Of a stretch of 42,381 bases of DNA, positions 1,079 to 26,019 are shown piece by piece (positions within the stretch are counted from its first letter, which is position 1; the number at the start of each line of letters is the position of its first letter). The notes beneath the pieces were generated by a model. The model worked only from the letters and a program-made list of their open reading frames with translations, searched no databases and was not told where the DNA came from. Both the position numbers and the translations under genes were made by a program. The DNA comes from Acetobacter persici JCM 25330 (GTDB taxonomy: Bacteria; Pseudomonadota; Alphaproteobacteria; Acetobacterales; Acetobacteraceae): assembly GCF_000613905.1 (NCBI RefSeq), contig NZ_BAJW01000030.1, positions 1-42,381 of the forward strand. The letters are read 5' to 3'.

Positions 1079-1199
1079 GCAGGCAGTCTACGCCCGCCCC
1101 AAATGCCGGTGGAACCCGTGCGGACCGTCATTTGCGGTATACAATGCCCGGTATAACGAGGATATGGGGGATAACTTTTCCACAGCGCGATTTTGCCCG

Positions 1200-1221: not shown

Positions 1222-1299
1222 TTCTGATCGAGTGGAGTTGATCACACAGCCCGCAAAAATCATGGACCGCCGGGGCGGTGGAGTCCTATTCTCTGGTCC

Positions 1300-1668: not shown

Positions 1669-1723
1669 TCTGAAACACATTCCCTGCTAAGGTATGTCTC
1701 CAGACAGGGAGTAAACAGGACGC

Positions 1724-2272: not shown

Positions 2273-2317
2273 GCCGCCACGCTCTGGTGCTGGCCGCCTG
2301 AAGAGGACGATTCCCGC

Positions 2318-4039: not shown

Positions 4040-4042
4040 GCA

Positions 4043-6087: not shown

Positions 6088-9027
6088 ATGACGACATATG
6101 ATAACGAAAAGAAGCTCGACTGGAGCGTATTTGACTGTGTCTGGTATAAAGAAAAATATTCAGAGCTTCTGACATTCCTGAACATTCAAACAGATGCGGA
6201 TGTTCAGGATTTTTATCAGAAAGAAGGGGTGGGGCTTAAACACTCACCCAACCCTTATTTTGATGAAGACTGGTATCTGAGCAAATACCCCGGCGTGTCG
6301 GAACAGATTATCCGGGGGGAGTTCCGCTCAGGGTTTGAGCATTATTGCCAGAAGGGCTTTGCCTCCCACAATCCGCACTGGCTGTTTGATGAAAGCTATT
6401 ATCTGAAGCGGCGTCAGGACGTGTCTGACGTCAGCCTTGCGGAAGAGGGCTTCCGGAACGGGTATGACCATTATCTGAATATCGGGGATTTTCAGTATAG
6501 CAGCGGGTCATGGTTTTTCGACCCCAATGCCTATCTGAAAGGCGGCCAGCCCACCACCACCGAACTGGGGCCTTATGCCCAGTGTGTGCGGGCAACAACG
6601 CCCGTCACGGGGTATGGCCACAGACTTTCTTGGTATTTTGACCCGGAATGGTATCTGGAAACCTATCCGCAGGTGCGGAAGGAACTGGACGCCGGGGAAT
6701 GGACGTCCGCCCTGCACCATTATCTGGCCAATAAAACGCCGACACTCTTCAACCCGGACCCGTATTTTTCAGAAGAGTTTTACGGCAGCATCAATAACGA
6801 CGTGTCGGGTGCTGTTGAAAACGGAAATTTCCGCAATTTCTTTGAGCATTTCCTGAAATATGGGGTGCATGAACTGCGTAAGCCGCTCTCCACCGTGGAT
6901 CTGGAAGGATATTACCGCAACCCGGCGGTGCAGCAGGAAGTCAGTCGCGGGGATTATCCGGACGCGTTCGCACACTATATCGCGCATGGCGGTAAGGTTG
7001 AGGATAATGCGGCCTTCCAGCAGGAAAGCGAGCATATTTCCAAAAAGCTTTATCACGAAATGTGCCGAATCCGGATGCCGCTGCTGCTCAATCAGACGCT
7101 GGATTTTACGTACGACTATCCTGATCTGACCGTCATTATTATCGCGCACAACCATTTTGCCATGACGCTGAGCGCGCTTGCGTCTCTGCGGGCCAACTAT
7201 AATGGGCCTATGCAGGTTATTGTGGTGGATTCCGGCTCTACTGACGGGATGCGCACGATTGAACAGCATGTGCGCGGTCTGGAAGTCATCCGCTTTCCGG
7301 GGAATATCGGTTTTCTGCTGGGCTGTAACGCAGCGCTTGAAAAAGTGCGTGGTCCTTTCACGCTCTATCTGAATAATGATCTGGAGTTGATGCCGGGCGC
7401 TGTGGGTAATGCGCTGGCGCGCCTGCGCAATGAGCCGCAGACGGGGGCAGTAGGGGCCAAGCTGGTCCGTACCAACGGGATGTTGCAGGAAGCTGGCAGC
7501 ATTGTCTGGCGTGACGGGTCTGTCTGCGGCTATCTGCGGGATAGGCGCCCGGATGTGCCGGAAGCCAATTTTGTGCGCTCGGTTGATTTCTGCTCCGGCG
7601 CGTTCCTGCTGGTCAGAACCACTCTGCTCAAAGAACTGGGTGGTTTTGATACCGATTATGCTCCGGCCTATTTTGAGGAAACAGATCTGTGCCTCCGTAT
7701 TCATGAGGCCGGGTCGGACGTGGTGTATGACCCCTCGATTGTGGTTATTCATTATGAATATGGTACATCCGGCTTTATCAGCGGCGCCTCCATGATTGCG
7801 CGGAATCAGGAAACTTTCCGCAGGAAGCACGGTGCCTATCTGCGGCAGAAAAATCTGTTCCATGAGCGTCTGCTGGTGCGGGCACGCTCTTCCGCCACGC
7901 GGCAGAAGCGGATTCTGTTTATTGAAGACCGGCTGCCGTACCGGTTCCTCGGGTCAGGCTTTACGCGGTCTAATGACGTCATCCGGAGCATGATTGATCT
8001 GGGGTATCATGTCACGGTGTATCCGGTTTACCGGCCCACAGAACCGATGGAAGAAATCTGCAGCGCCTTCCCGGACCGCGCTGAGGTGATCTGGGACCGG
8101 GAACTGCCGGAACTGGAGGACTTTATTAAATCCCGTGCCGGATATTATGATCTTGTGTGGATTGCCCGCACCCATAATGCGGACCGTCTGGCTCCCGTGC
8201 TGATGCAGTGTGCGGATGCCATTTCATCCCATGCCGTAATTATTGATACCGAGGCTGTGGCGGCGCCGCGTGAGCACCAGAAGCATCTTCTGCGCGGCAC
8301 AGGTGCGCCGGAGCAGACCGTTGATGAAATGCTGAAACACGAATTCCGTCATTTGTTCATGGCTGAGAAAATTGTTGCTGTGAACAGAAAGGATGCTGAG
8401 ATTCTGAAGAAGAACGGCTTCCCGAATGTCGGTGTTCTGGGGCATATGCAAAAGCCATTGCCCTATAGTCCGGGGTGGGACGCACGGCGAGATATTCTCT
8501 TCCTCGGTGCGATGCATGATGCAGATTCCCCCAATGTGGATTCCCTTGCATGGTTTAGTAGTGAGGTCCTGCCGCGGCTGGAAGGGCGTCTGCCCGCGGA
8601 TGTGAAATTTACTGTGTGTGGCTATATCAGCCCCAGAGTTGATCTCTCTCTGCTGGCAAAAAATCCGCGCGTGAACCTGCTGGGTCGCGTTTCCGCCGTT
8701 GGCCCGGTGTATGACAGCCACCGGATTTTTGTGGCCCCGACGCGATTTGCTGCCGGTATTCCCTACAAAATTCACGAGGCCGCAGCGCATGGTCTTCCCA
8801 TTGTGGCCTCTTCCATCCTGTGTGAGCAGGTGGGCTGGACGCCGGGTGAGGACATGCTGAGTGTCAGCACGACGGACCCGCAGGCCTTCGCGGATGCTGT
8901 TGTCCGGCTGTATGAAGATAAGGTGCTGTGGGAGAGCATCCGTGAGCATGAGCTTGCCCGTGTGCGAGAGGAACACTCCCGCGAGATATATCTCGAACAG
9001 CTAAAGGGTATTCTCAGCTTTTCATAA
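6088..9027 (+). CDS. Bifunctional glycosyltransferase (GT2 plus GT4-like) with N-terminal repeat modules
   Basis: This 979-residue cytoplasmic protein has three parts. Residues about 15-305 hold five to seven degenerate copies of a module with an aromatic-Tyr pair, a Tyr/Asn-Pro-x-Val and a closing His-Tyr (for example DEDWYLSKYPGV and later FEHYCQKG). Residues about 347-560 are a GT2 GT-A domain: LTVIIIAHNH, VVDSGSTDG, the metal-site-like LYLNNDLEL and FEETDLCLRI. Residues about 607-970 are a GT-B, GT4-like domain starting KRILFIEDRLP with a donor-binding region near GIPYKIHEAAAHGLPIVAS. Two domains suggest two consecutive sugar additions in lipopolysaccharide or exopolysaccharide synthesis; acceptor and sugars are unknown. 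The gene stands alone: 188 bases upstream are non-coding, and a strong hairpin follows it. Confidence 0.9.
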   Translation: MTTYDNEKKLDWSVFDCVWYKEKYSELLTFLNIQTDADVQDFYQKEGVGLKHSPNPYFDEDWYLSKYPGVSEQIIRGEFRSGFEHYCQKGFASHNPHWLFDESYYLKRRQDVSDVSLAEEGFRNGYDHYLNIGDFQYSSGSWFFDPNAYLKGGQPTTTELGPYAQCVRATTPVTGYGHRLSWYFDPEWYLETYPQVRKELDAGEWTSALHHYLANKTPTLFNPDPYFSEEFYGSINNDVSGAVENGNFRNFFEHFLKYGVHELRKPLSTVDLEGYYRNPAVQQEVSRGDYPDAFAHYIAHGGKVEDNAAFQQESEHISKKLYHEMCRIRMPLLLNQTLDFTYDYPDLTVIIIAHNHFAMTLSALASLRANYNGPMQVIVVDSGSTDGMRTIEQHVRGLEVIRFPGNIGFLLGCNAALEKVRGPFTLYLNNDLELMPGAVGNALARLRNEPQTGAVGAKLVRTNGMLQEAGSIVWRDGSVCGYLRDRRPDVPEANFVRSVDFCSGAFLLVRTTLLKELGGFDTDYAPAYFEETDLCLRIHEAGSDVVYDPSIVVIHYEYGTSGFISGASMIARNQETFRRKHGAYLRQKNLFHERLLVRARSSATRQKRILFIEDRLPYRFLGSGFTRSNDVIRSMIDLGYHVTVYPVYRPTEPMEEICSAFPDRAEVIWDRELPELEDFIKSRAGYYDLVWIARTHNADRLAPVLMQCADAISSHAVIIDTEAVAAPREHQKHLLRGTGAPEQTVDEMLKHEFRHLFMAEKIVAVNRKDAEILKKNGFPNVGVLGHMQKPLPYSPGWDARRDILFLGAMHDADSPNVDSLAWFSSEVLPRLEGRLPADVKFTVCGYISPRVDLSLLAKNPRVNLLGRVSAVGPVYDSHRIFVAPTRFAAGIPYKIHEAAAHGLPIVASSILCEQVGWTPGEDMLSVSTTDPQAFADAVVRLYEDKVLWESIREHELARVREEHSREIYLEQLKGILSFS

Positions 9028-9063
9028 AAACCGGTTTGCGGTTTTAGAAGACTGATCCGGGGG

Positions 9064-9102
9064 TTTTGTGAGAGACAGGCCATTCTGTGGCCTCTCACAA
9101 AA
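9064..9102. terminator. Bidirectional terminator-like hairpin
   Basis: TTTTGTGAGA at the left arm pairs with TCTCACAAAA at the right arm, and GGCCA pairs with TGGCC inside, with a 4-base bulge (GACA) on the left. T and A runs flank the stem, so it could work in both directions between the converging glycosyltransferase and Nudix genes. Confidence 0.75.
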
Positions 9103-9183
9103 CCTGCCGGATTTTACAGGCCTTGCGTGCTGGCCTGACCGGAAAATCAGTTCTTTCTTCTAACAGAATATGTGCTCGTGCGT

Positions 9184-9711
9184 TTATTCGGCCTGACGGG
9201 GCGGGATAATTTTCTGCGTCAGTTCAAATAGCCGGGCGCAGGCTTTGGGGCCAAGAGCCTGCACGTCTTCATAAGAAAACCAGCGGGCCTCAAGGGCATC
9301 ATCTGCGGCGTGGGGTGCTGTGGGGTGCCGGGCTGTTTCCTCACACAGGACAGCAACAATCACGTAATGGAAGGCCAGTGTGCCCTCTGGTGTGCGGTGG
9401 ATGCTGTCAAACACATCAACGGTTTGCAGGGCGCGTGCGTTCAGTCCGGTTTCTTCCCGTAATTCACGCTCCGCGGCCTGAAACAGGGTTTCTCCGGCTT
9501 CCACCCGCCCACCGGGAAAGCCCCACAGGCCAGCATCAGGCGCATTGGCCCGGCGCACCAGCACAACATTACGGCCATGCCGCACAAGAGCCAGAACGCC
9601 CACGCGCGGCATAAGAGGGGGAGATGCAGAAGTCATGCTCAGAAAATGCAAAAATTTTCTGGTCATGGTCAAGCATTCTGCAGGGCGTTGTGCCGGGTTT
9701 GTGGTGCGCAT
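9184..9711 (-). CDS. Nudix hydrolase
   Basis: This protein hydrolyses a nucleoside diphosphate linked to another group, releasing a nucleoside monophosphate derivative. The Nudix box is complete: GGRVEAGETLFQAAEREL followed by REETGL, with the metal-binding Glu residues of REETGL present. The core starts at PRVGVLALVRHGRNVVLVRR, and WGFPGG precedes the box; the pattern is typical of ADP-ribose or NADH pyrophosphatases of the short type. The longest frame starts at 9711, but the start is more likely Met16 (9666) or Met26 (9636, MTSASPPL), because the first 25 residues look non-conserved and none of the starts has a clear ribosome-binding site. Substrate cannot be told from the sequence. Confidence 0.85.
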   Translation of the reverse strand: MRTTNPAQRPAECLTMTRKFLHFLSMTSASPPLMPRVGVLALVRHGRNVVLVRRANAPDAGLWGFPGGRVEAGETLFQAAERELREETGLNARALQTVDVFDSIHRTPEGTLAFHYVIVAVLCEETARHPTAPHAADDALEARWFSYEDVQALGPKACARLFELTQKIIPPRQAE

Positions 9712-9858
9712 CCCGTCAGGAACATGCCCGCCTTTCGCATGTGTAATGCAACAGGTGAGGCGTGCTGCGTTTAAAACAGAGGTCTTCTGTCAGGCAGGGT
9801 CCGGCGCGTGGCTCGTCTGATGGACAGTTTTTTATGACGTTACGAGGAGTGTCTGATC

Positions 9859-10842
9859 ATGACAGCAGAAACCCTTTCCATTCCGGGTCTTGCCAAGCCT
9901 GCGTCCCGCATTGCGCTTGGAACATGGGCCATTGGTGGGTCCATGTGGGGTGGCCCGGATGATGTAAATGCTGCAAAAACCATTGATAAGGCACTGGAAC
10001 TGGGCATCAACGTCATTGATACGGCTCCGGTTTACGGGTTCGGTCATTCAGAAGAGGTGATTGGCCGCGCGCTGGAAGGCAAGCGGGACAAAGTCATTCT
10101 GGCGACCAAGGTGGCGCTGAACTGGCAGGACGGCAAAGTGTTCCGTGATAGCCGCCCGGCGCGGATCGCGCAGGAGATTGAAGACTCTCTGCGCCGCCTG
10201 CGGACGGACCATATTGACCTGTATCAGGTGCACTGGCCTGACCCCAAAACACCGCTGGAAGAAACGGCCCGCGCGCTGGAAAAACTGGTGAAGGACGGCA
10301 AGGTGCGGGCGCTGGGTGTCAGTAATTTCTCGCCGGAGCAAATGGATGAATTCCGGAAATTTGCGCCTCTCGCCACAATCCAGCCGCCCTATAATCTGTT
10401 TGAGCGTGAGATTGAAAAGGACGTTCTGCCTTACGCCATTAAAAACAATCTGGTTGTGCTGGCCTACGGGCCGCTGTGCCGTGGCCTGCTGTCCGGCCGC
10501 ATGACGGCGGACCGCAAGTTTGAAGGCGATGATCTGCGCAAGAGCGACCCCAAATTCCAGCAGCCGCGCTTTGGCCAGTATCTGAAAGCGGTGGATGATC
10601 TGAAGGCCATTGCGGACAAGCATGGCAAGAGCATGCTGGCCCTTGCCATCCGCTGGGTGCTGGACCGTGGACCGACCATTGCACTCTGGGGTGCCAGAAA
10701 GCCCGAGCAGATTACCGGGGTGGATGAAGCTTTTGGCTGGACGCTGGATGAGGCGGATATGAAGGCCATTGACGCCATTCTGACGCGCGACATTTCTGAC
10801 CCTGTGGGGCCGGAGTTTATGGCGCCTTCCGCCAGAAGCTGA
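9859..10842 (+). CDS. Aldo/keto reductase
   Basis: A 327-residue NADPH-dependent oxidoreductase of the aldo/keto reductase superfamily (TIM barrel). The catalytic tetrad is present: Asp54 and Tyr59 in [10 protein letters not shown], Lys84 in LATKVAL and His125 in LYQVHWPDP. The cofactor-phosphate region near residues 255-290 includes [20 protein letters not shown]. It resembles the subgroup that includes YajO and Tas-like or general stress AKRs, so its substrate is open. GAGGAG lies 11-16 bases before the ATG. It is transcribed alone, divergent from the Nudix gene, with uvrB starting about 118 bases downstream. Soluble cytoplasmic protein; no anomalies. Confidence 0.92.
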
Positions 10843-10960
10843 CCCTTTTTTTGAAGGTTCGGGCGATATCCGGCAGCGAAGCGCTGGCGCGGATACCGCC
10901 GGGAACGGTCTGACGCACTCAGGCTTGCAGCAAACCGGTTCGCACACCATGTTGAGGCCT

Positions 10961-13243
10961 ATGGCATCCCGCACCGTTCCCGATTCCGCGTCTCGTTCTT
11001 CCTCCGCTCCGGCGGCTGCCCGTGGTAAAAAACGCGGCACGCTGAGCGAGCGTGCCGCCAGCCTCCCGGCTGTCACGTTTGAGCCTGACCGTCAGGCGGC
11101 GCGGCCCAAGCTGCGGCGTATGGAAGTGGTCTCGGAATACGAACCGGCAGGGGACCAGCCACAGGCGATTGCCGATCTCCTTAAAGGGATTGAGGCGAAT
11201 GAGCGTGATCAGGTCCTGCTGGGGGTTACCGGGTCCGGTAAAACCTTCACCATGGCGAAGGTGATTGAGGCCACACAGAAACCAACCCTTATTCTGGCGC
11301 CTAACAAAACACTGGCCGCACAGCTTTACGGGGAAATGAAACAGTTTTTCCCGAATAATGCGGTTGAGTATTTTGTCAGCTACTATGACTATTATCAGCC
11401 GGAAGCCTATGTGCCCCGGTCTGATACCTATATTGAAAAAGACAGCCAGATCAACGAACAGATTGACCGGATGCGCCACGCCGCCACGCAGGCGCTGCTG
11501 GAGCGGAACGATGTGATTATCGTGGCGTCTGTCTCCTGCATTTACGGTATCGGCTCGGTCGAGACGTATTCCCGCATGGTCGTCAAGCTGGAGCTGGGCG
11601 GGGAGATTGACCGGGACCGTCTGGTGCGCGGACTGGTCGAACTGCAATACCGCCGCAATGATGCAGCCTTTACCCGTGGCACCTTCCGGGTGCGCGGGGA
11701 AACGGTTGATATTTTCCCGGTGCAGAATGAAGACCGGGCCTGGCGCGTTTCCCTGTTTGGGGATGAGATTGACGGAATTATCGAGTTTGATCCGCTGACG
11801 GGTGAAAAGACGGCTGATCTTCAGGAAATTACTATTTACGCTAACAGCCATTACGTCACACCTCGGCCGACCTTGCAGCAGGCTATTGTGGGGATCAAAC
11901 AGGAACTTCGTCAGCAACTCGATCAATTTACGAAGGACGGCAAGCTGCTTGAGGCCGAGCGGCTGGACCAGCGCACGACGTTTGATCTGGAAATGATTGA
12001 AACGACTGGCGTGTGCAAAGGGATTGAAAACTATTCCCGCTACCTGTCAGGCCGCAAACCGGGTGATCCGCCACCGACCCTGTTTGAATATCTGCCGGAA
12101 GATGCCTTGCTGATTGTGGATGAAAGTCATGTTACGGTGCCGCAGATTGGCGGCATGGAGCGCGGCGATAACGCGCGGAAATCCATTCTGGCCGAGTTTG
12201 GGTTCCGTCTGCCCTCCTGCCTTGATAACCGCCCGCTGAATTTTGCGGAGTGGGACAAGTTCCGTCCGCAAAGTCTCTTTGTCAGCGCCACACCCGGCCC
12301 GTGGGAAATGGAACGGACAGGCGGCGTGTTTGCCGAGCAGGTTATTCGCCCGACCGGCCTGATCGACCCGGTCACGGATATTCGCCCCGTGGAGCATCAG
12401 GTGGATGATCTTCTGGCGGAATGTCGGGCGACGGTTGCCAAGGGTGGCCGTGTGCTGGTGACAACCCTCACCAAGCGCATGGCGGAAGATCTGACTGATT
12501 ATCTGCACGAAGCTGGCATCAAAGTGCGGTATCTCCATTCCGATGTGGATACGCTGGAGCGGATTGAGATTATCCGGGATCTGCGGATTGGCGCGTTTGA
12601 CGTGCTGATAGGCATCAACCTGCTGCGTGAGGGGCTGGATATTCCGGAATGTTCGCTGGTTGCCATTCTGGATGCGGATAAGGAAGGTTTCCTGCGCTCC
12701 CGTACTTCTCTGATTCAGACCATTGGCCGTGCTGCCCGTAACGTGGAAGGACGGGTGCTGCTTTATGCTGATAAAATGACGGACTCTTTGCAATACGCGG
12801 TGGAGGAAACAGCCCGGCGGCGTGAAAAGCAGATGGCGTGGAACGAGGCGCACGGCATTACGCCGCAAAGTGTGCGCAAAAATATTGGTGCCATTGTCTC
12901 CTCCGTGTTTGAGCAGGATTACGTAACTGTCGCGCCGGATGAAGATACGGGTGTTGCTGAATTTGTCGGGCAGGATCTGGATACCGCGATTGCCGGGCTG
13001 GAAAAGCGGATGCGTGAAGCCGCTGCCGATCTGGAATTTGAAACAGCAGGCCGCCTGCGGGATGAAATCAAGCGGCTGGAAGCCTTGCAACTGGGGCTGG
13101 ATGCGCCTCCGGCACCCTCTTCAACCGCCGGGCAGAAAGCCGGAGCGCGCCGCAAGGCAAAAAAGGATCAGGTGCCACGCCCGCTGGGGCCGGGCGGCGG
13201 CGGATATGAGCCCAAACCTAAACGCGGACGCAGCCGGAGTTAA
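10961..13243 (+). CDS. uvrB: Excinuclease ABC subunit B
   Basis: UvrB is the damage-verifying helicase of nucleotide excision repair, acting with UvrA and UvrC. The protein has Walker [11 protein letters not shown], the beta-hairpin [12 protein letters not shown] that is inserted into DNA, the DESH box in LIVDESHVT, the helicase region [12 protein letters not shown] and QTIGRAARN, and a C-terminal UVR helix pair ([15 protein letters not shown]) that binds UvrC. A basic tail rich in Lys, Arg and Gly closes the protein. The ATG at 10961 follows TTGAGG at suitable spacing; ATG 10949 and TTG 10925 are upstream alternatives. The N-terminal 45 residues before [15 protein letters not shown] are a low-complexity extension. 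Length (about 760) is slightly above the usual 670 for this reason. Confidence 0.95.
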
Positions 13244-13263
13244 GGGGCCGAAGTTAAGGGGAA

Positions 13264-13282
13264 GGGGTGGTTCTGCCGCCCC
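13264..13282. terminator. Weak hairpin between uvrB and the permease gene
   Basis: GGGGTGG at 13264-13270 pairs with CCGCCCC at 13276-13282 (one G-T pair), with a 5-base loop. There is no T run on either side, so this is a weak candidate for the convergent gap after uvrB. Confidence 0.3.
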
Positions 13283-13304
13283 CATGCTGCGCGGAAGGCG
13301 CGCC

Positions 13305-14470
13305 TCACTCTGTCTCAGTGGTGGAGGAGCGGGTCTGTGCCGTTGTGGGCAGGCTTGGCAGAGGGTCGTTCAGATCAGACGTCTGGAAATCTGTTTCTGA
13401 AAGCCAGCTTTTCACGAGTGTATAGGTGACGGACAGGATCATCGGTCCGACAAAAATCCCCACAAGCCCGAACGCCGCCAGCCCGCCAATCACGCCCACC
13501 ATAATCAGCACCAACGGCACATTGGCCTGTTTGCGGATAAGGAAGGGGCGCAGCAGGTTATCAATCACAATCGCAAGAATGGTAAACACCAGCAGCACAA
13601 TGGCCGGGCCAGCGCCGCGCAAGAAAAACATCCAGATTACTGCCGGAATGAGCGTCACGCCGGGGCCGGCCTGAAGCAGGCAGACAATAAAGGTCACGGC
13701 TGTCAGAATACTGGCCCAGGCACCCCGGTTAAGGCCATGCCGATCCCGCCGACCGCGCTTTCCGCAATCGCCGTTACGGTCACACCTACAGCCACGCCCC
13801 GAATGGTCCGCCCGGCCAGTAGCACCATCTCCCGGCCGCGTTCCCCCGCCAGAGCAGCCCCGAAGTTCATGACCAGACTGGCGGCGGCCTCCCCACGTGT
13901 GTGGAGGGCGGCCAGAATAATCAGGGTCAGCAGAAATTGCAGCGCGAGCATGCCAAAGCTACCCGCATAATCCAGCACCCAGCCGATCACCTTGCCCGTA
14001 TCAGGCAAAATGCGGTTGGCGAGCTGCGGCAGGCGTACATTTTCAATCTGCTGCCACCAGTCGGCCGTTTTGGGGCCGATCAGCGGCAGATGCTGGATCC
14101 ATTGCGGTTCTGAGGGGATGCGGAACGCCAGAGCAGAATCCGCGAGGGTTTTCAGTTCTGCCGTGTGTGTCAGGACGGTGGTGGTCGCCAGCCAGAAGGG
14201 CAGGACATAGACCATCAGCGCCACCAGACAGGTCACGGTGACCGCCAGCCCGCGGCTGCCCCACAGAAATTTCTGAATATGCAGGAGCAGGGGCCATGTG
14301 GTGATCCCGATTGTCACGGCCCAGATGGTGGCAGGCAGAAAGGGGCGCACAACCCAGAGCGAGCAGAGGATCATCCCCACCGCCGTCATGGCAGCCAGAA
14401 CGACTCGTGTCTGGTGTGCGGGTATGTCACTGGGGGGGAGGGTCTTGTTCGTCATTTCGTCCGTTTTCAT
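13305..14470 (-). CDS. AI-2E family transporter (permease), frameshifted near 13715
   Basis: This is a PF01594-family (YdiK/TqsA-like) integral membrane protein of about 388 residues. The N-terminal frame runs from MKTDEMTNKTL (ATG at 14470, alternative 14455) through several membrane segments to GGIGMALTGVPG. The family sequence then continues in another frame as ASILTAVTFIVCLLQAGPG and on to FLRGAGPAIVLLVF and LIRKQANVPLVLIM, ending at 13305. One extra G in the GGG run opposite 13715-13717 joins the halves without loss. The family exports varied small molecules; substrate is unknown. The large frame extending upstream to 15181 is an artefact of the opposite coding strand. It diverges from the AsmA-like gene. 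Confidence 0.85.
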
Positions 14471-14685
14471 CCTCAGGGAGGAAGGCTCTTTGCGCTGCTC
14501 CGCCGCCACAGTGGGGATAGAAAGACGACCCGGCAAGGCACAGAGGTATCTGAGGTTCTCTGCTATGCCAATCATGGACATGACGCGGGCGTCATTTTTT
14601 CCTACAAGAGCACCCGATCCTGCCAGTGGGCAGAAAAAGCGCATCGTTCCGGCTGGAAACAGGGTGCGGGAAATTGAGGATTTGA

Positions 14686-16648: not shown

Positions 16649-16733
16649 GAAGGGGGGGCAGGGCTTGTTCCTGCCGCACTTCCCTTCTACCGTCGTCTTG
16701 CAAAGGGTTCATATCTGGACGGAACGCAAGACC

Positions 16734-17390: not shown

Positions 17391-17435
17391 GGTTCTGATT
17401 TCTGTAAATAAATTATACGGACAAAGGATTTAAGA

Positions 17436-20216
17436 ATGGCTTTTCCCTTTTCTATATCAGGTAATGTAAAACAGTCTGGCAGACCGGCGCGGTTACGGGC
17501 GTCGGGCGTATCGCCTCTTATTCTGGGTGCGGCCATTCTGGCAGGCACCGCGCTGTCCTCAGTCGTGTCCATACCGGCCGCTCTGGCACAACAGGCCCCG
17601 TCTGCGCTGGTGCCTGCCGCTCTCAGCAGTGCACAGGTGGTGCGCGCAACCCTGCCTAACGGCCTGCGGGTGGTCATTGTGCCCAACCGTCTGGCACCCG
17701 TCGTGACAACGGAAATCAATTATCTGGTTGGTTCGTCAGAGGCGCCGGAGGGGTTCCCCGGCACGGCCCATGCGCTGGAACATATGATGTTCCGCGGTAG
17801 CACCGGGCTGGATAAGGACCAGCTTGCTGCTGTGGGTACCCGTCTGGGTGGCAGCTACAATGCGGATACGACTGAGGACGTTACGCAGTATTTCTATACC
17901 GCGCAGGCGCAGGACCTTCCTGTTCTTCTGAAAATTGAAGCTCTGCGCATGAAAGGTCTGACTCTGTCTGAAGCAGACTGGAGCAAGGAACGCGGGGCGA
18001 TTGAGCAGGAAGTCTCACGGGATCTGTCCAGCCCGGCCTATCTGTATCTGCAACAGTTGCAGTCCATCCTGTTTGCAGGGACACCTTACGCGCATGACGC
18101 GCTGGGCACACGTCCGTCTTTTGAGAAGACAGACGCAGCTCATCTGCGCACTTTTTACGAAAAATGGTATGCGCCCAACAATGCCGTTCTGGTCATTGTG
18201 GGGGATGTAAACCCTGTGACGGCGCTGGATCAGGTGCGGGACGCCTTCGGAGCTGTGCCGCGTAAAACCCTGCCGGAGCGGCCAAAAGTGGCTCCGGTGC
18301 CGCCTCCGGCTAAAACGCTTAGCTTCCCAACGGATTATCCGGTGGGCTTTGCAACGCTCGCCTACCCCATGCCGGGGCGCACGGCGGACACCTTTGCTGT
18401 TGCGGATATTCTGTCTGACGTGCTGGGGAGCCAGCGCGGCGCGTTGTATGATCTGGTGCCGCAGGGCAAGGCGCTGTTTGCTGGTTTTGAATACGCACCC
18501 AAAAAAGAAGCAGGGTTTGGTCTGGCGCTTGCCGCGTTTCCCAAAGGAGGAGACTCCGCAAAAGCTCTGAACGATCTGCGCGGTGTTCTGGAGAAAATCC
18601 GTAAAGACGGCGTTCCGGCGGAGCTGGTGGAAGCGGCGAAAAAGCGGGAGATAGCCCAGCTTCAGTTTTCCGCAAACTCCGTGAGTGGTCTGGCGGCCCA
18701 GTGGTCCACCGCACTGGCGTTCCACAATCTTGACGCACCGGGCGATATCGTTGCCGCCTATCAGGCTGTTACGCCGGAGGCAGTTAATCGTCTGGCCGCA
18801 AAACTACTGGACCCCGCTCACGCTGTGACCGCAGTGCTGACGCCGGAAGCATCTGGCAAGCCTGTGGCCGGAAAAGGGTTTGGTGGCGCGGAATCCTTTG
18901 CCTCTACGCCTGACAAGCCGGTTAAACTGCCGGACTGGGCAGAAAACGCTTTGTCCCATCTGGAAGAACCTAAACCCACGCCGCAGCCGGTCGTCAGCAT
19001 CTTGCCCAATGGGCTGAAGCTGATTATCTGGCCGTCTCACGTCAGCCACACCATTCAGCTTTCCGGTGAGATCCGCCAGAACGCGGCCATGCAGGAACCC
19101 GGGGGCAAAGAAGGGGTGGAGGACCTGACGGAGGGTCTGTTCTCCTACGGTACGGCAACACATGACCGTCTGGGCTTCCAGAAAGCACTGGATGATATTC
19201 CGGCATGGGAAAGTGCAGGAGGCAGCTTCTCACTTCAGGTTCTAACGCCTGATTTTGAAAAAGGCATTGCTCTGCTTGCAGAAAATGAACTGCATCCGGC
19301 TTTCCCGGAAAAGGCATTTCAGATTGTGCGGATGCAGGCCGCACAGGGGCAGGCTGGTTTGCTGGTGTCTCCCGGCTTCCTGTTCGGGCAGGCGATTAAA
19401 ACGGCCCTGTTGCCCGCAAAAGATCCGGAATTGCGTCACGCCACACCGCAATCTCTCATGAGCATTTCGCGGGATGATGTGCTGAAATACTATCAGGCAG
19501 CCTGGCGTCCTGACCTTACGACAATTGTTGTGACGGGTGACATCACGCCGGAAAAAGCGCGCTCTGTGGTAGAGCAGGCTTTTGGCGGCTGGAAAGCAGA
19601 CGGGCCAAAACCGGTGGTGGATTTGCCGGCTGTGCCGCTCAGCAAAGCGTCCCGTGCCAATGTGCCTGATAAAAGCAGCGTGCAGGATAGCGTGGTGCTG
19701 GCGGAAACGCTGGGCCTGACGGCGTCTCACCCGGACCATTTCCTGTTGCAGCTTGGCAATGAGGTGCTGGGGGGTGGTCTCTTTTCTTCTCGTCTGTATC
19801 GGGATCTGCGGGTCAAAACCGGCTATGTCTATTCCGTGGGCAGCAGCTTTGACTGGGGGCGTACACGGGGCTCTTATAATATTGAATACGGATCAGATCC
19901 GGACAAAGTTGGTAAAGCCCGTGTTGCTGCGTTGCAGGATCTGAAATCCATGCAGACGGCTCCCCCGACGGAGGATGAATTGTCTCTGGCAAAAGCCTCT
20001 CTTTTGCGGAGCTTGCCGCTGCGTCGTGCCAGCCTGAGCAGCATTGCCGCGCAATATCTGGGGCTGGAGGAGCTTGGACTGCCACTGGATAATACCGATC
20101 GTGCCGCGAAGGTATATTACAAAGCAACGGGCGCTGAAGTGCAGGCAGCATTCCAGAAATGGATCCGTCCGGATGATCTGGCTCAGATTGTCAAAGGACC
20201 AGCACCGACCTGGTAA
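17436..20216 (+). CDS. M16 family zinc metallopeptidase, exported, two-domain
   Basis: A 926-residue peptidase related to insulinase and PqqL-like proteins. A signal-type N-terminus (hydrophobic core at about residues 26-48, AALAQ end) suggests a periplasmic or envelope location. The first M16 domain carries the inverted zinc motif HALEH (His112, Glu115, His116) and a third ligand Glu192 in EQEVSRD. The second domain, beginning near PNGLKLIIWPS, has KEGVEDLTEGL in place of the motif, so it is catalytically inactive and presumably helps to form the substrate chamber. A purine-rich AAAGGA precedes the ATG. A strong terminator follows at 20227. It stands on the same strand as the oxygenase gene and may be cotranscribed. 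Confidence 0.93.
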   Translation: MAFPFSISGNVKQSGRPARLRASGVSPLILGAAILAGTALSSVVSIPAALAQQAPSALVPAALSSAQVVRATLPNGLRVVIVPNRLAPVVTTEINYLVGSSEAPEGFPGTAHALEHMMFRGSTGLDKDQLAAVGTRLGGSYNADTTEDVTQYFYTAQAQDLPVLLKIEALRMKGLTLSEADWSKERGAIEQEVSRDLSSPAYLYLQQLQSILFAGTPYAHDALGTRPSFEKTDAAHLRTFYEKWYAPNNAVLVIVGDVNPVTALDQVRDAFGAVPRKTLPERPKVAPVPPPAKTLSFPTDYPVGFATLAYPMPGRTADTFAVADILSDVLGSQRGALYDLVPQGKALFAGFEYAPKKEAGFGLALAAFPKGGDSAKALNDLRGVLEKIRKDGVPAELVEAAKKREIAQLQFSANSVSGLAAQWSTALAFHNLDAPGDIVAAYQAVTPEAVNRLAAKLLDPAHAVTAVLTPEASGKPVAGKGFGGAESFASTPDKPVKLPDWAENALSHLEEPKPTPQPVVSILPNGLKLIIWPSHVSHTIQLSGEIRQNAAMQEPGGKEGVEDLTEGLFSYGTATHDRLGFQKALDDIPAWESAGGSFSLQVLTPDFEKGIALLAENELHPAFPEKAFQIVRMQAAQGQAGLLVSPGFLFGQAIKTALLPAKDPELRHATPQSLMSISRDDVLKYYQAAWRPDLTTIVVTGDITPEKARSVVEQAFGGWKADGPKPVVDLPAVPLSKASRANVPDKSSVQDSVVLAETLGLTASHPDHFLLQLGNEVLGGGLFSSRLYRDLRVKTGYVYSVGSSFDWGRTRGSYNIEYGSDPDKVGKARVAALQDLKSMQTAPPTEDELSLAKASLLRSLPLRRASLSSIAAQYLGLEELGLPLDNTDRAAKVYYKATGAEVQAAFQKWIRPDDLAQIVKGPAPTW

Positions 20217-20226
20217 AAACACCCCT

Positions 20227-20270
20227 CCCCCCGTTTCTTATGAAATATCATGAAGAAAACGGGGGTTTTT
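20227..20270 (+). terminator. Intrinsic terminator after the M16 peptidase gene
   Basis: CCCCCGTTT at the left arm pairs with AAACGGGGG at the right arm, followed at once by TTTTT (20266-20270). It begins 10 bases after the stop codon at 20216. Confidence 0.85.
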
Positions 20271-20347
20271 AAAGGCTTGCGTTTCGGCGTAATAAACCTG
20301 CGGCCTGTTTTATGCGGGCAGGTTAAAAGATTTTTGAAGTATAAAAT

Positions 20348-20381
20348 AATGCCAGCCACACTCAGGAAGGTGGCTGGCATT
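20348..20381. terminator. Second hairpin in the M16/GT2 gap
   Basis: AATGCCAGCCAC at 20348-20359 is the perfect reverse complement of GTGGCTGGCATT at 20370-20381, with a 10-base loop. A T-rich stretch (TGTCTTTTC) follows on the plus strand. It may be a back-up terminator or a conserved stem-loop. Confidence 0.6.
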
Positions 20382-20444
20382 GTCTTTTCTGTGTCTTGGA
20401 TCAGCAGACAGGAAGTCTTGCATATCAGGGCAGGGGAAAAGACA

Positions 20445-20466
20445 GTCAGGCCCTGAGGGGCCTGAC
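20445..20466 (-). terminator. Terminator-like hairpin after the GT2 gene
   Basis: GTCAGGCCC at 20445-20453 pairs with GGGCCTGAC at 20458-20466. On the minus strand, downstream of the gene ending at 20489, it is followed by TGTCTTTTCC. Confidence 0.65.
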
Positions 20467-20488
20467 AAGATAGCCGATTTCTGAAAAA

Positions 20489-21265
20489 TCAGCTTTCTTT
20501 CTGAGGTGACGGGTGGCGGAATTCCATCACCAGTTCAAGATCATAATGCGCGGAAAGGGCTTCCGTGGCCGTGCGGGATGTGTTGTGAACACGGTAACGG
20601 CACAGAATTTCCGGCAGGTATCCGGGGCTGAGATCGCAATCAATAAATTTTAGCCAGAAATCATAATCTTCCCAGCCTTCTTCAATATGGCAGAAGCCGC
20701 CCACACGCGCCCACGCATCCTTACGGATCAGGGCCATAACGTCTACGTAGTTGTTCTGCTTCATCCGGGCTGGGTCCCAGATATCGGCATGGCCAATGCC
20801 CTTGCGGTCACCAAATTCTTCAATCTGGGTGTAAACGGCTGGAAAACCCCCGTTAATCAGGGCGGCGTACGTCTTTTCCAGAGCTTTAGGGTAAACGGTG
20901 TTGTCTGCATCCATGATGAAGACAGCTTCACCTAAAGCATTTTCAAAGGCGACGTTCCGGGAAAAAGACGGTCCCTGATTCCGCTTATTCTGGATCAGGG
21001 TTGTGCGGTAGAAGCGCTGCTTGTTCTCTTCCATCCATTCTGTGATGACCGCGATAGAATCATCACGTTCAGACAGATCATCCACAACAACGAGGTCAAT
21101 ATTCTCGTGCGTCTGGTCAACAATGGAGTCCAGACATTCACAGATAACAGCCGCATAATTGAAGTTTGTGACGCAGACTGTCACCAGATCTTTGGGTTTT
21201 CTTGATTTTTTCTTGAACGAAAATTCAATGTTACCAGCCGGAGCCCAAGGTTTCAGAATGCTCAT
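20489..21265 (-). CDS. Glycosyltransferase family 2 protein
   Basis: A single-domain GT2 (GT-A fold) of about 258 residues. The nucleotide-binding start is LVTVCVTNFNYA, followed by LVVVDDLSERDDS and the metal-binding DxD-type motif in VFIMDADNTVYP. The acceptor region includes GFCHIEEGWEDYDFWLKF, the ED motif of this family. The likely start is the ATG at 21265 (MSILKPWAP), which overlaps the stop of the preceding gene (ATGA) and indicates translational coupling; a frame Met at 21280 is inside the upstream gene. It probably adds one sugar to a surface glycan together with the upstream glycosyltransferase. Cytoplasmic, no membrane segment. Confidence 0.88.
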   Translation of the reverse strand: MSILKPWAPAGNIEFSFKKKSRKPKDLVTVCVTNFNYAAVICECLDSIVDQTHENIDLVVVDDLSERDDSIAVITEWMEENKQRFYRTTLIQNKRNQGPSFSRNVAFENALGEAVFIMDADNTVYPKALEKTYAALINGGFPAVYTQIEEFGDRKGIGHADIWDPARMKQNNYVDVMALIRKDAWARVGGFCHIEEGWEDYDFWLKFIDCDLSPGYLPEILCRYRVHNTSRTATEALSAHYDLELVMEFRHPSPQKES

Positions 21266-22810
21266 TTCAGGTTGCTCCACACGGAAGAGATATAGTTTTT
21301 CAGGTCCAGATTTTTGGAATTGAAGATGTCTTCGTTTTGCAGAACATCAAAAATGTTTTTCTGAATTCTGGCGGCCTCAGCCTGACCTTCTTCTGTGCGG
21401 ATCAGCCATTCAATCAGATTGGGCATATGGCGCGGTGTTTCAGTCAGATAATGTTCACCGTTTTTGTACAGAGGATGTGGGAAGCATTCTTCTGTTACAA
21501 TAATGGACCCGGATGCCATGCCCTGTTTGACAATGCGGTGCCATTCAAAAAAGCAGTTATCATCACGGTGAATATTGAGCGAAATTTTTGAATTCTCAGA
21601 AACGTAGCGCGGCAGACGTGAGAGAATGTCATACAGGCCGGAACTGGGAATAGGACCATCGGCCTTCCGGTAATATAAGAAATTCTGATAGTCGGCGAAG
21701 AATGCTGCGGCCCGGGAGAAAAACTTCTCTCTCTTGCGGGAGGCATTGCCGAAAAAGCTGACATCAATGCTGCGCTCATTGATGGGCGTGAACGGAGAAG
21801 AGGCTTTCTGCGCAGGCTGGGGCAGCACACGGAACAGCGGATGCTTCTTGTCTTCCGCTGAGAGGGCACAGGCCTCAATTTCCACAGGTGGATCAAAGTG
21901 GAAAACGTTCAGCCCGACATCCGAGAAGGATTTCAGGTTCTGGTAGCACAGATCCATCACGCCTGCGGACATCATGATGTAAATGATGCCCCGGGTGAAC
22001 CACAGTGTTTGTGGCTGCTCTGTATTGAACATGATGGAACGCTTGATGATTTCATCTTTTTTCCAGGCCTCATTCCCGGAAAGAAAGAAGAATTCATGCG
22101 GAGCGCAGAAGATGCAGAGTTCGGGAGCGTCCTCTTCCGGGGTATCTTCCGTCATGACGCGGGAATTGATCCCGCTATTCTTGAGGTAGTCATCCAGACA
22201 CTCTGCGAGTTCCTTGATAAAGGAATTGCCTTCTGAATGGTAAAAGACGCCGACGGTTTTGGGGAGTGCGTCGCTGGTGTCGTCTTTGTTAATTTTATAG
22301 TCGATGTCGTTCTTACATTCCTTACCCAGAAAACTGACGATCGACGCTTTGAGAAGATTTCACGCCCTTCTCCAATCCCGTAAAGCAATGCGTGACGGAC
22401 CGGGGACATTTTGGCGGATGAAATATCGGCATTCATCCGGAGATAGTCATCTGAGCTAAAGAACGGGTATTTTTTTAGACGATTCAGGCATTACTGATGG
22501 AATCATAACCATATTCCTGCAGAAGGCCTTTTTCAAAGAAATAAAGATTTTCATTATTTCTTATATAATGAGCAAACGGGTTTTCGTCCTGGCCAATAAC
22601 GTTTTTGTAAAGATTATAGTAAATTTCGGTATTAAAATTTTCGTTGGGGTTTCTGTTTTCCTGACAGCCGTAAAGAACATAATGAACAATAGGATCAAGA
22701 CCTGATTTTTTTACATCAGGATTTTCGGAAAAGTAAAAATCAAGATCAAATTTCTCTGAATCAACTATCGTTTTTATGTCTTTTTTGTTCCACGCTGTTA
22801 GAGTAGCCAT
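21262..22810 (-). CDS. Glycosyltransferase (GT-B, CgeB-like) with N-terminal repeat modules, two frameshifts
   Basis: The reconstructed protein of about 516 residues is split into three frames here. From ATG 22810 (MATLTAWNKKD, preceded by GGGA) the first part gives two modules: FYFSENPDVKKSGLDP with HYVLYG, then NEIYY-type and HYIRNNE. A lost base at 22487-22488 changes frame and the next part gives FFSSDDYLRMNADISS with HALLYGIGEGR. A lost base near 22347 leads to the catalytic part, starting KTVGVFYHSEGNS and ending at 21262. Donor-side features are SKISLNIHR, a WHRIVKQGMASGSIIVTE stretch and LTETPRHM, as in the Glyco_trans_1_2/CgeB group. It forms a two-gene operon with the GT2 gene. Alternative reading: two or three short genes, which would leave module and enzyme separated. 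Confidence 0.7.
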
Positions 22811-23416
22811 TATGTTTCCCGTTTGTGCCAAATGTAACTTGTGAAGTCTCGGCAAGCATACCGCAAAAATATTGTCCTGAGAACGACGAACTTCCCGGTA
22901 TTATGTGACAAATCTAAGGAGATATTGTTATAAAATAACAAACATAAAGTCAAATTAATTAGTCGCGGCAGTAGTGTTCATCAAAATAAATTTGTAACGG
23001 CACAATGAAATAATTTTTAAATAAGTGAATATTTTGATATTGGCTAACGATTTTGTTTGCGCTTTGAGATTGCGTAGTCTCGAGCTAAAATAGCTTTTTA
23101 TTATATGATGAATATTTGAGGTTCAAAGAAGGAAAATTAATTGCTCGGGAAGAATTGATGTGTTTTCGAGGGAGGTATCTCTTTGCTCTGAGCAATCTAT
23201 ATAAGTCATAGGGCGTCGATAAAAAAAATATTTTGTCTTTTTTTATAGAAGGGCACAGCTTTTCTTTTTCTGGCCACTGCCAATGCTTCGAAAAGTGATA
23301 TAGATGTCTTAATATGATGTCGCGATGAACCGGAGGCGTGCAAGCGCGTCCAAGAAATAGAAGCGCGCGGCATAAAGTGCGTTGAGATATTCGAGCGGAG
23401 CAGGAACAGAGTTATC
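22811..23416. other. AT-rich divergent intergenic region, no gene seen
   Basis: This 606-base gap separates the minus-strand glycosyltransferase from the plus-strand FkbH-like gene. It is conspicuously AT-rich compared with the coding DNA, has no ORF with coding character and holds a 17-bp palindrome at 22925-22941. It must contain promoters for both transcripts; I cannot place -35/-10 boxes with confidence in such AT-rich sequence. Confidence 0.6.
22925..22941. promoter_or_regulatory. Perfect 17-bp palindrome, possible operator
   Basis: TTGTTAT at 22925-22931 and ATAACAA at 22935-22941 are exact reverse complements separated by AAA. It lies between two divergent glycan genes, 115 bases upstream of the glycosyltransferase start. 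The regulator is unknown, and in AT-rich DNA some chance palindromes are expected. Confidence 0.4.
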
Positions 23417-25255
23417 ATGGTGCAAGAAGTCGAACGGGGTATGTCTGCGGCAGAATTTCTGTTTCCTTCCGATCTGGAGCGGACAGAAAAAAAAATTGAT
23501 CGGGTTCTTCTGATCGGTTCCTGCCTGACCGCTCTGTATTTTGAACAGTTCAAGGCCCGTTATCCTGAGACCGCTTTTGACTATATTCCCTATAACTTTG
23601 TCAGCATTCTTCCTCCGCAGCCGCCATCCCCGGTTGAAGGCTATGATCTGCAATATGTTCAGATCCCTTTGCGGACCCTGCTGAGTGATCGGGTTATCGA
23701 GGGCTTTCGCTTCAACGAACCTGGTTTTGCCGAGACAGTTTTTGAAGATGCGAAAAATCTTCTTGATGTCATGCTCTCCGCAGCAATGGTTTACAATAAA
23801 TCACACGGACTGCTGACATTCGTCTCGAATTTTATTGTGCCGCAAATGAGCAGTGCGTCCAGCCTGCGGGGTAAAGGCAGCCAGCGTGATCTTGTGACGC
23901 TGGTTCATCGCCTGAATGACTATCTGAATGAGCGTGTCGAAACCTATAAAAATGCCTATGTGCTGGATGTGGACGCCGTCGCCAGTGCGGTTGGGAAACG
24001 ACACATTCTGGATGATGTCATTTATTTCTATTCACACGGGGGGGTGGCGTTTCAGGACTGGGATGATTTTGGAGCCATTGCCCGTAATGAGCCGATCCCG
24101 CCTCTGGAGACAGTGTATCCTGTCAGGCGCGAGGAGTTTCTGGATGCAATTTACCGCCAGATTGTGACGTCCTATCGCACGGTGCATCAGGTCGATCAGG
24201 TCAAGGCTGTTATTTTTGATCTGGATAACACCCTGTGGCGGGGGCAACTTGCAGAGCATTATCGCCCGGACGTGCAGCCATGGCCGCGTACGGACGGCTG
24301 GCCGCTGGGGATCTGGGAGGCAATTCATTACCTGCGTGCCCGCGGTATTCTCGTCGCGATCTGCTCAAAAAATGACTATGAGACTGTCAGGCAGAGGTGG
24401 GATGATGTGGTCAACCCCGGATTTGTCTCTCTGGAAGATTTTGCGTCTCTGAAAATCAACTGGCAGCCCAAGGCGGAAAATATCGCGGCAATCTGCAAGG
24501 AATTCAACATCAAGCCCAAGAGCGTGGTTTTTGTTGACGATAATCCTGTAGAGCGGGCCGCAGTGGCCTCTGCTTTCCCGGATTTGCGTGTGATGGGCGG
24601 CAATCCTTATCTGACGCGGCGTATTCTGCTGTGGTCAGCCGAGACGCAAATTGCCCAGCTCACGGCAGAATCTGAACGGCGCGAAGACATGATTCGGAGT
24701 CAGATCGAGCGGGAAGAAACACGCTCCGCCATGAGCCGGGAAGAGTTTCTGGCTTCTCTCGACTGTCGTGTGACCATCAAATGTATTACCGACACGGCAC
24801 AACCTGAATTTGCACGTGCTCTCGAGCTGACAAACAAAACCAACCAGTTCAATACGTCTGGCAAACGGTGGGCCTTTAAGGAAGTCGCAGATTTTCTGAA
24901 GGACGGTGGGCAGCTACTGGCATTTAATGTGCAGGATAAATTCACGGAGTACGGGCTGGTTGGGGTGTTATATCTCAAAAAATCTGAAATTGTTCAGTAT
25001 GTTATGAGCTGCCGTGTGCTGGGGATGGAAGTGGAGGAGTTTGTTGTCGCGCAGGCGGTTGCCCATGTTCGCAAAGCGCATGGGAATGTTCGGGTGACGG
25101 CGTCTGTGCATGAACTGCCGGATAATACTCCTTGCCGGGATGTTTATGTTCGTGCCGGTTTCAGAGAAGACTGGGTTTCGGAAGGGATTCATTATTATAT
25201 TCTGGATGAAGGTCTTAACCCTAAAACTGCTGCCCATATCAAGGCCGTTGCATAG
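23417..25255 (+). CDS. FkbH-like protein (SGNH-like / HAD-IIIC / acetyltransferase)
   Basis: This 612-residue protein has an N-terminal SGNH-like part starting LLIGSC at residue 31, a HAD-IIIC domain and a C-terminal GNAT-like part (about 445-600). HAD motifs are clear: IFDLDNTLW with Asp268 and Asp270, ICSKND (about 315-320), and VFVDDNPVERAAV (about 372-384). FkbH domains load three-carbon glyceryl-type units onto carrier proteins in polyketide pathways; related proteins occur in lipopolysaccharide and O-antigen loci. With glycosyltransferases on both sides, a role in making or attaching a glycan substituent is plausible but inferred. No acyl carrier protein gene is visible nearby. The ATG at 23417 has only a weak ribosome-binding site. 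A terminator follows at 25287. Confidence 0.88.
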   Translation: MVQEVERGMSAAEFLFPSDLERTEKKIDRVLLIGSCLTALYFEQFKARYPETAFDYIPYNFVSILPPQPPSPVEGYDLQYVQIPLRTLLSDRVIEGFRFNEPGFAETVFEDAKNLLDVMLSAAMVYNKSHGLLTFVSNFIVPQMSSASSLRGKGSQRDLVTLVHRLNDYLNERVETYKNAYVLDVDAVASAVGKRHILDDVIYFYSHGGVAFQDWDDFGAIARNEPIPPLETVYPVRREEFLDAIYRQIVTSYRTVHQVDQVKAVIFDLDNTLWRGQLAEHYRPDVQPWPRTDGWPLGIWEAIHYLRARGILVAICSKNDYETVRQRWDDVVNPGFVSLEDFASLKINWQPKAENIAAICKEFNIKPKSVVFVDDNPVERAAVASAFPDLRVMGGNPYLTRRILLWSAETQIAQLTAESERREDMIRSQIEREETRSAMSREEFLASLDCRVTIKCITDTAQPEFARALELTNKTNQFNTSGKRWAFKEVADFLKDGGQLLAFNVQDKFTEYGLVGVLYLKKSEIVQYVMSCRVLGMEVEEFVVAQAVAHVRKAHGNVRVTASVHELPDNTPCRDVYVRAGFREDWVSEGIHYYILDEGLNPKTAAHIKAVA

Positions 25256-25286
25256 TATTGAAATCGTTACGAATAAGTGTTTCTTT

Positions 25287-25316
25287 AAATGCCGCATTTT
25301 AATGCGGCATTTTTTT
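25287..25316 (+). terminator. Intrinsic terminator after the FkbH-like gene
   Basis: AAATGCCGCATT and AATGCGGCATTT form a stem of at least ten pairs with a short TT-centred loop, followed by a T run to 25316. It sits 31 bases after the stop codon. Confidence 0.85.
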
Positions 25317-25536
25317 GGAAAATAGTTCTATTACAGTTTACAGATTAAATGGTTGTTGGTTTTTATTGAAACAAGTGCAGTTAATGCGTGAATGAAGGAT
25401 TAACGGAGTATTTATTATCGTTTTTTGACGTTACATAAAAGAAAATTAAACTCGGTTTATATCTGTTTTTGCTGGACAATATCCTCGAAAAATTATTAGT
25501 AAAAAACCGAATATATCTAAAGGTGTGAGTTGGCAT

Positions 25537-26019
25537 ATGAGTGTGCGTACGAGCAAGGGTCAGACCAAAGCGGCCAAGGGAACAGAACCGAAGTTGGTAA
25601 AGGACCTGAAGGTCGCACGCCGTTCCAGAGTGTCTAAGAAAGCTGTGGCTTTTGCTCCGGAACCCAGTGTTGAAGCACCAAAAGCAGAAGAGAGGCCGCA
25701 GGACATTGCGTCCGTGACAGCCTCGTTGCCAGATGAAATTAACGGAGCACAGCCGTCCATGCAGGAAAATCAGGAATTCCAGTCTGCTATTTATTTTGAT
25801 GGAGGCTGGTATCTGGATATGTATCCCGATGTACGCGCTGCAGGGATCGACCCGCTGGAGCATTTCCTGAATCATGGTTCTCAGGAAGGCCGCAGCCCGA
25901 ATGCGCTTTTTGATAGTCAGGCCTATCTGCGCGCGAACCCGGACGTCGCTGATTTTGAACGCGGCCCGTTTATTCATTATATTTGCTTCGGTTTTCAGGA
26001 AAAGCGCCCGTTGCGTTAA
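25537..26019 (+). CDS. Stand-alone repeat-module protein of unknown function
   Basis: A protein of 160 residues. The first 40 or so residues are basic (many Lys and Arg), followed by an acidic Pro/Glu/Ala linker to about residue 80. The remainder is two copies of the glycosyltransferase-associated module: YFDGGWYLDMYPDVRAAGID followed by HFLNHGSQEGRSPN, then FDSQAYLRANPDV followed by HYICFGFQEKRPLR. There is no glycosyltransferase or other enzyme domain, no signal peptide and no membrane segment. An adaptor or scaffold that holds glycan enzymes together is possible, but this is inference. ATG 25537 is preferred over GTG 25525; AAGGTG lies upstream of both. It is flanked by the FkbH-like terminator and the hairpin at 26029, so it is its own transcript. 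Confidence 0.75.
   Translation: MSVRTSKGQTKAAKGTEPKLVKDLKVARRSRVSKKAVAFAPEPSVEAPKAEERPQDIASVTASLPDEINGAQPSMQENQEFQSAIYFDGGWYLDMYPDVRAAGIDPLEHFLNHGSQEGRSPNALFDSQAYLRANPDVADFERGPFIHYICFGFQEKRPLR

Follow-up and report, generated by a model that had tools for sequence, protein, structure and literature searches.

CW_7 (PF08230) is a three-helix repeat, and SLH (PF00395) is a repeated surface-anchoring module similar in size to the one described here, a unit of about 40 residues that recurs in three coding regions of a 42,381-nucleotide contig of Acetobacter persici JCM 25330 (NZ_BAJW01000030.1; this whole stretch is the window below). As outlined for the Cpl-7-type endolysins, CW_7 likewise forms short repeats in the C-terminal cell-wall-binding position, and the C-terminal domains of endolysins from phages of Gram-positive hosts are presented as usually cell-wall binding (PMC5968864; PMC9371310). 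RsaA_NTD (PF19198) is introduced as the alpha-helical O-antigen-binding domain of the S-layer protein of Caulobacter (PMC6978808), and chain terminators with coiled-coil rulers are summarized as recruiting polymerases via their membrane-proximal end (PMC11231755). DUF4214 (PF13946) resembles the module of the window in being an unnamed repeat.

The module is a predicted helical repeat for which the searched copies of Pfam, NCBIfam and PHROGs contain no family model and that of the PDB no related fold. It may act like a cell-wall-binding or S-layer-anchor module, yet the tests below place it outside CW_7, SLH, RsaA_NTD and DUF4214. It is read here, as probable if by a modest measure, as a three-helix binding repeat for a bacterial envelope polysaccharide, which would be a cell-wall or surface glycan. 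The module occurs on lysins, secreted proteins and glycan-building enzymes, and the simplest ligand common to these would be an envelope polysaccharide, met in the cell wall, on the outer surface and in the cytosolic assembly line, respectively.

Sequence form and predicted fold of the module

The unit is 36-44 residues long and is shared by a protein of 979 residues, a broken glycosyltransferase-like gene and a small stand-alone protein. Hidden Markov models (HMMs) trained on copies from one or two of these proteins score the remaining ones at 15-53 bits, and with 3000 shuffles of each target 0/3000 reached the observed cross-detection score in every test. The repeated pattern that the initial annotation described is present in all three proteins, and the alignment extends across the entire length of the copies, beyond short chance matches. 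The glycosyltransferase-like piece of the broken gene (21262-22155) contains no module, its score being equalled by 704 to 3000 of 3000 shuffles. An HMM made only from window copies exceeded all 200 shuffles of each target in 13/13 chosen open reading frames (ORFs) of the lysin set, 9/9 Planctomycetota proteins, 6/6 RTX proteins, 3/3 Escherichia coli plasmid proteins and 3/3 other viral-contig proteins.

The strongest positions of the refined 41-position profile are F1, Y6, H28, Y/F29 and P40, followed by D2 and N/H41. The start-to-start spacing of modules, with redundant loci counted, peaks at 38 residues for a short form and at 42-43 for a long form. The copies of the 979-residue protein belong to the long form, with 42-44 residues, 4-6 of which are inserted before the third helix. 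For this reason the motif first proposed, which is that of the short form, fits the 979-residue protein only in part. An asymmetry between module 1 and module 2 of pairs was unsupported, with a best uncorrected p of 0.002 in 293 tests on 30 pairs.

AlphaFold2 predicted the entire 979-residue protein, with 29 homologues, at a pLDDT of 87.7 and a pTM of 0.67, and its first 338 residues, with 30 homologues, at 87.4 and 0.80. The structure prediction suggested at the outset returned three short helices for each regular unit and two for module 4. The predicted array consists of seven contiguous units that begin at residue 15 and stop near residue 307, where a long helix leads on into the GT2 domain. 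The refined HMM detects six copies in this array, from residue 15 to about 301, and a second profile five. A Foldseek search of the long-form array against the PDB copy gave no fold match (six matches at E <=10, the best with E 1.3 and probability 0.02), and a PDB sequence search gave nothing usable (best E 0.23). A TPR/Sel1-type solenoid was accordingly found neither by this fold search nor by Pfam on the window proteins. The best structural matches in BFVD are mostly giant-virus proteins (Fadolivirus, Hyperionvirus and Indivirus), several bearing names of glycosyltransferases or methyltransferases; none is significant singly, and with an E of 0.014 at best the giant-virus link is kept as a lead only.

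The absence of an established name, as first supposed, was confirmed in Pfam, NCBIfam and PHROGs. No Pfam or NCBIfam model covers the module in the window proteins, on which the sole PHROGs match is a stray one to phrog_37322 (E 0.29, residues 124-159 of the 979-residue protein). In the lysin set, no NCBIfam family occurs in more than 2/17 members, and none lies on the modules of the first member, the only one with positions shown; PHROGs matches on the viral-contig proteins overlap the modules merely weakly or at the edge. Literature searches with words of the motif, as they were set, returned no paper, and a name may exist in print.

The four candidate families were each set aside. CW_7 has no Pfam match on the window proteins, the sampled module proteins (25 of 28 families listed) or the scanned lysins; unlike CW_7, the module is also carried by glycosyltransferases, and a Foldseek search with its array matched no PDB chain. 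RsaA_NTD, likewise alpha-helical and an anchor to a surface glycan as the module may be, co-occurs with it in one RTX protein, L219; homology was rejected, since hhalign gave the module and the RsaA_NTD stretch in L219 a probability of 0.3 percent. SLH does not match the window proteins, and its match in a Planctomycetota protein, L205 (best stretch 354-373, none passing alone), lies outside the module array at 802-1115. Similarly, DUF4214 has no match on the window proteins, and in the viral-contig protein L284, where it co-occurs with the module, its best stretch is 132-176 and the modules are at 279-339.

Proteins that carry the module

With the window profile at E <=0.001 per genome, the module was found in 168/200 genomes of Acetobacteraceae, the family of the window, in 19/240 genomes of a class sample and in 52/398 of a phylum sample (five of the same family, 32 of the same class and 15 others). 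Among the genomes of loci from other groups, 1/31 has it. Within single phyla, it occurs in 3/149 genomes for the Planctomycetota, where one genome, G615, alone has 60 matches; 2/198 for the phylum of a Kaistella genome (G592); 7/198 for the Actinomycetota (G600); 1/101 for the Chloroflexi (G599); and 0/149 for the phylum of an Ammonifex genome (G608). The stand-alone protein has matches at E <=0.001 in 119 records of the plasmid collection. The number of copies ranges from 1 to 18 per protein.

Partner domains were examined in 48 module proteins from the phylum sample, plasmids (11) and a few other genomes, mostly best matches and thus a non-random sample. Pfam found GT2 in 19, GT group 1 in 14, RgpF (rhamnan synthesis protein F) in five, RTX repeats in four, WsaF_C in three, a methyltransferase (PF13578) in two and peptidase M10_C in two, with WbsX, RsaA_NTD, CDP-glycerol glycerophosphotransferase, PIG-L and GT61 in one each. 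Fusion to a glycosyltransferase is therefore the commonest context in the scanned sample, and the co-occurrence for which a profile search had been proposed was found. The idea of a glycan-assembly element stands to that extent, and it does not cover several RTX/M10 proteins or the Planctomycetota and endolysin proteins that also end in the module. Since the same module is C-terminal on these proteins, recognition of an acceptor or surface glycan is favoured over a scaffold for assembly enzymes.

The Planctomycetota genome G615 encodes nine module proteins (L201-L209) with arrays of 5-15 copies. These arrays end 3-8 residues before the C-terminus in 8/8 proteins with a complete end, the ninth (L204) running off its contig. 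Pfam results for eight of the nine, L202 being left aside, comprise Ig-like, Calx-beta, FG-GAP or laminin-G domains in 5/8, golvesin and cyclophilin domains in 1/8 and nothing in 2/8. The terminal arrays of this genome resemble a surface-sorting tail. Similarly, in four RTX proteins (two in L161 and one each in L185 and L250) the arrays end 3-13 residues short of the C-terminus.

Two DNA motif patterns led to 57 viral loci, 33 of them with the module at E <=0.001, and a third pattern led to 18 loci with module matches at E <=0.01 to a profile already containing viral copies. Endolysins are part of this yield. A C-terminal module pair is present in 11/18 third-pattern loci (L313/L314 and L307/L320 look identical). 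In 10/10 lysins, chosen for having such a pair, the last module begins 39-44 residues from the C-terminus. A relatedness search with one lysin tail returned 12 loci, 11 beyond the query (L323 being on the same contig as L312), and in 11/11 ORFs found in this way the match ends 0-3 residues from the C-terminus. Among 16 lysin-type proteins, a set with two from one contig and with L306 and L310, which have no terminal pair, Pfam identified CHAP in six, Amidase_2 in four, glucosaminidase in four, GH25 in three and ELLD in two. A set of 17, which has five in common with the set of 16 and takes in non-lysins, gave Amidase_2 in five, ELLD in three and GH25, CHAP and glucosaminidase in one each; no Pfam family thus occurs in more than five members, although every member bears modules. 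As to class, the module pair stands at the C-terminal position behind a catalytic domain, as the cell-wall-binding domains of endolysins do, with the exceptions of L306, L309, L310 and L321.

The lysin tails are assigned to the module family of the window because three comparisons point to it. A tblastn search with the L257 lysin tail on plasmids matched an M10 protein (E 6e-13) and a glycosyltransferase (E 1e-8); hhalign aligned lysin tail and module with a probability of 93.8 percent for a single tail and 96.8 percent for copies picked with a wider profile; and the window-copy HMM scored the lysin ORFs above their shuffles. In the phage collection, the lysin tail matched one unannotated fecal record, at 14 places. 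Modules are also found in a virion structural protein, L280 (phrog_6121), and in L271, which has a signal-peptide-like start. On a 222-kb viral contig, a 796-residue protein (L285:3-2390, minus strand) has two modules, and a nearby ORF (3345-4136, minus strand) matches a GT2 profile.

Proposed ligand and alternative explanations

The calculations show that the repeat exists, what fold it is predicted to have, where it occurs and which domains accompany it, and from these we infer a glycan as the ligand, with the same ligand class for cytosolic and extracellular copies. In the cytosol, on glycosyltransferases, terminating methyltransferases and small stand-alone proteins, the module would keep the enzyme attached to the acceptor or growing glycan chain; outside, it would fasten the secreted RTX, M10 and Planctomycetota proteins to a surface glycan; and on phage endolysins, the C-terminal pair would serve as the cell-wall-binding domain, with tandem copies providing avidity. 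A broader and tentative reading, somewhat doubtful as a whole, is that one helical repeat family forms a general envelope-polysaccharide grip on both sides of the membrane, so that makers and readers of glycans share a recognition module in several phyla and their phages. If the module does bind envelope glycan, the ends of many glycosyltransferases, RTX proteins and lysins that now lack an explanation could be annotated together, and the finding would offer a handle on how large cytosolic polymerases remain on their chains and add a new class of cell-wall-binding domain.

Several observations weigh against glycan binding. The lysins found by DNA patterns were pre-selected for part of the motif, and their scores are thus partly selected; 7/18 third-pattern loci (L306, L309, L310, L321, L315, L316 and L318) have no C-terminal pair. 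In two RTX proteins, L216 and L219, the modules lie away from the C-terminus. The RsaA_NTD of L219 (7296-10334) itself counts in favour of glycan binding; it lies at the C-terminal end (835-998), behind the module at 438-478, in an order opposite to that of RsaA. Modules are present on virion-type and other viral-contig proteins of unassigned ligand as well. In our reading, helix capping and packing could explain most of the most conserved positions, with no binding site evident. The stand-alone protein of the window, with no catalytic domain and, by eye, no signal peptide, fits an adaptor equally well, and cytosolic and extracellular copies could have differing ligands.

The main rival to glycan binding, unlikely on the whole but deserving attention, is protein-protein docking, in which the modules, by contact with one another or with a partner that they share, would tie polymerase, terminator and adaptor into one complex, much as WbdD recruits WbdA through its membrane-proximal end. 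It is favoured by a glycan cluster on an E. coli IncHI1B plasmid (L158:7607-12699) with an ABC exporter and rfb genes, where a terminator-like methyltransferase has two modules at its C-terminal end and the GT2-GT2 protein encoded by the following gene has one at its start. This methyltransferase has a long middle that appears coiled-coil-like by eye, and the layout of its cluster is WbdD-like: both proteins combine a methyltransferase with such a middle and place their C-terminal end by a polymerase gene in an ABC exporter cluster, and the polymerase recruitment outlined for coiled-coil-ruler terminators lends the idea support. Unlike in WbdD, the C-terminal end of the plasmid methyltransferase consists of two modules, and Pfam finds no kinase domain. 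The adaptor-like stand-alone protein, whose gene neighbourhood is kept in L221, also suits docking. No such partner is in view for the phage endolysins, RTX proteases and Planctomycetota proteins, and docking could apply to the cytosolic members. Of 5426 E. coli genomes, 17 have DNA matching the plasmid gene pair, with a coverage of 80 percent or more in 16 of them and with 14/17 places on plasmids, and the plasmid module pair has no match in the phage collection.

Less probable still is a structural spacer or stalk, a kind of ruler that would bind no specific ligand and would set the distance from the membrane or surface. The wide range of copy number and the contiguous predicted array agree with it; most lysins, on the other hand, hold two copies at the extreme end with nothing beyond to space, and the side chains are strongly conserved. 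That the copies match by chance or through biased composition, conceivable for short units of common residues, is contradicted by the shuffle controls, the confident predicted fold and the presence in most genomes of the family, and can be dismissed.

Genes and module coordinates of the window

The window is contig C207 of a 3.70-Mb assembly of 236 contigs, and its features are given in Table 1.

Table 1. Module-bearing genes of the window, their modules and adjoining genes
Feature	Position	Strand	Basis or remark
979-residue protein: N-terminal module array (residues 15-307), GT2 domain, GT4-type domain	6088..9027	+	Pfam, Foldseek
Array module 1 (long form)	6130..6258	+	Refined profile, not listed with window profile; predicted helices 17-23, 25-30, 36-47
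Array module 2	6259..6384	+	E 1.7e-17, window profile (itself profile member)
Array module 3	6385..6516	+	E 7.9e-16, window profile (itself profile member)
Array module 4, degenerate, residues ~144-183	6517..6636	+	Predicted helices 146-151, 162-168 only; missed by window profile
Array module 5	6637..6765	+	E 1.1e-16, window profile (itself profile member)
Array module 6	6766..6894	+	E 6.3e-16, window profile (itself profile member)
Array module 7, divergent	6895..7008	+	E 0.46 (whole-genome search); predicted helices 272-276, 279-287, 293-299
GT2 family gene adjoining broken gene, no module found	20489..21280	-	Pfam PF00535; same neighbour in L221, L224
Broken gene, three reading frames: three N-terminal modules and unclassified glycosyltransferase-like C-terminal part	21262..22855 (approx.)	-	Pieces searched apart
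Broken gene module 3, weak, different frame	22362..22460	-	E 0.087; third copy in relatives L221, L224, L227
Broken gene module 2	22526..22636	-	In open piece 22484-22855
Broken gene module 1	22637..22750	-	In open piece 22484-22855
FkbH-domain protein between broken gene and stand-alone protein	23417..25255	+	TIGR01686, E 6e-63; same place in L221
Stand-alone protein: ~86 Lys/Ala-rich residues, then two modules	25537..26019	+	Profile, homologues
Stand-alone protein module 1	25795..25908	+	Profile search of genome
Stand-alone protein module 2	25909..26016	+	Profile search of genome

In the 979-residue protein, Pfam places GT2 at residues 345-557 and GT group 1 at 801-944, and Foldseek matches to glycosyltransferases support both the GT2 and the GT4-type domain. 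Its relatives are found in Acetobacter, Komagataeibacter, Acidocella, Gluconobacter and others, with 88-91 percent identity in the best segment to the proteins of Acetobacter malorum, A. orleanensis and A. farinalis. The initial annotation had taken all three proteins as members of a glycan cluster, which does not apply to them as one cluster: the gene of the 979-residue protein sits 11 kb from the other two, and the ORFs in between are, as read from the sequence, presumably housekeeping genes.

The three frames of the broken gene occupy 22487-22900, 22155-22490 and 21265-22359, a split that may reflect real decay or an assembly error. Intact relatives with a single open frame of 517-537 residues are present in L221, L224 and L226 (same genus) and in L227 (another genus of the same family). 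They have three modules in L221, L224 and L227 and one detected in L226, followed by the glycosyltransferase-like C-terminal part; no Pfam model covers this part in the broken gene (piece 21262-22155). The gene for the FkbH-domain protein is located beside module genes in L221 and L224 also, split over two ORFs in the latter. L221 keeps the order of GT2 gene, broken-gene relative, FkbH gene and stand-alone gene, the last being on the opposite strand compared with the window.

The stand-alone protein has homologues in L221, L225 and L058; no catalytic domain was found in it by Pfam and no signal peptide was seen by eye. Contig C226 of the same genome encodes a 220-residue stand-alone paralogue (L022:9173-9835, minus strand) that is 39 percent identical to the N-terminus of the 979-residue protein, and a nearby ORF is one that we take to be SecB. 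A further module-bearing open frame, damaged and 104 residues long, lies on contig C230 of the same genome (L015, approximately 1378-1689).

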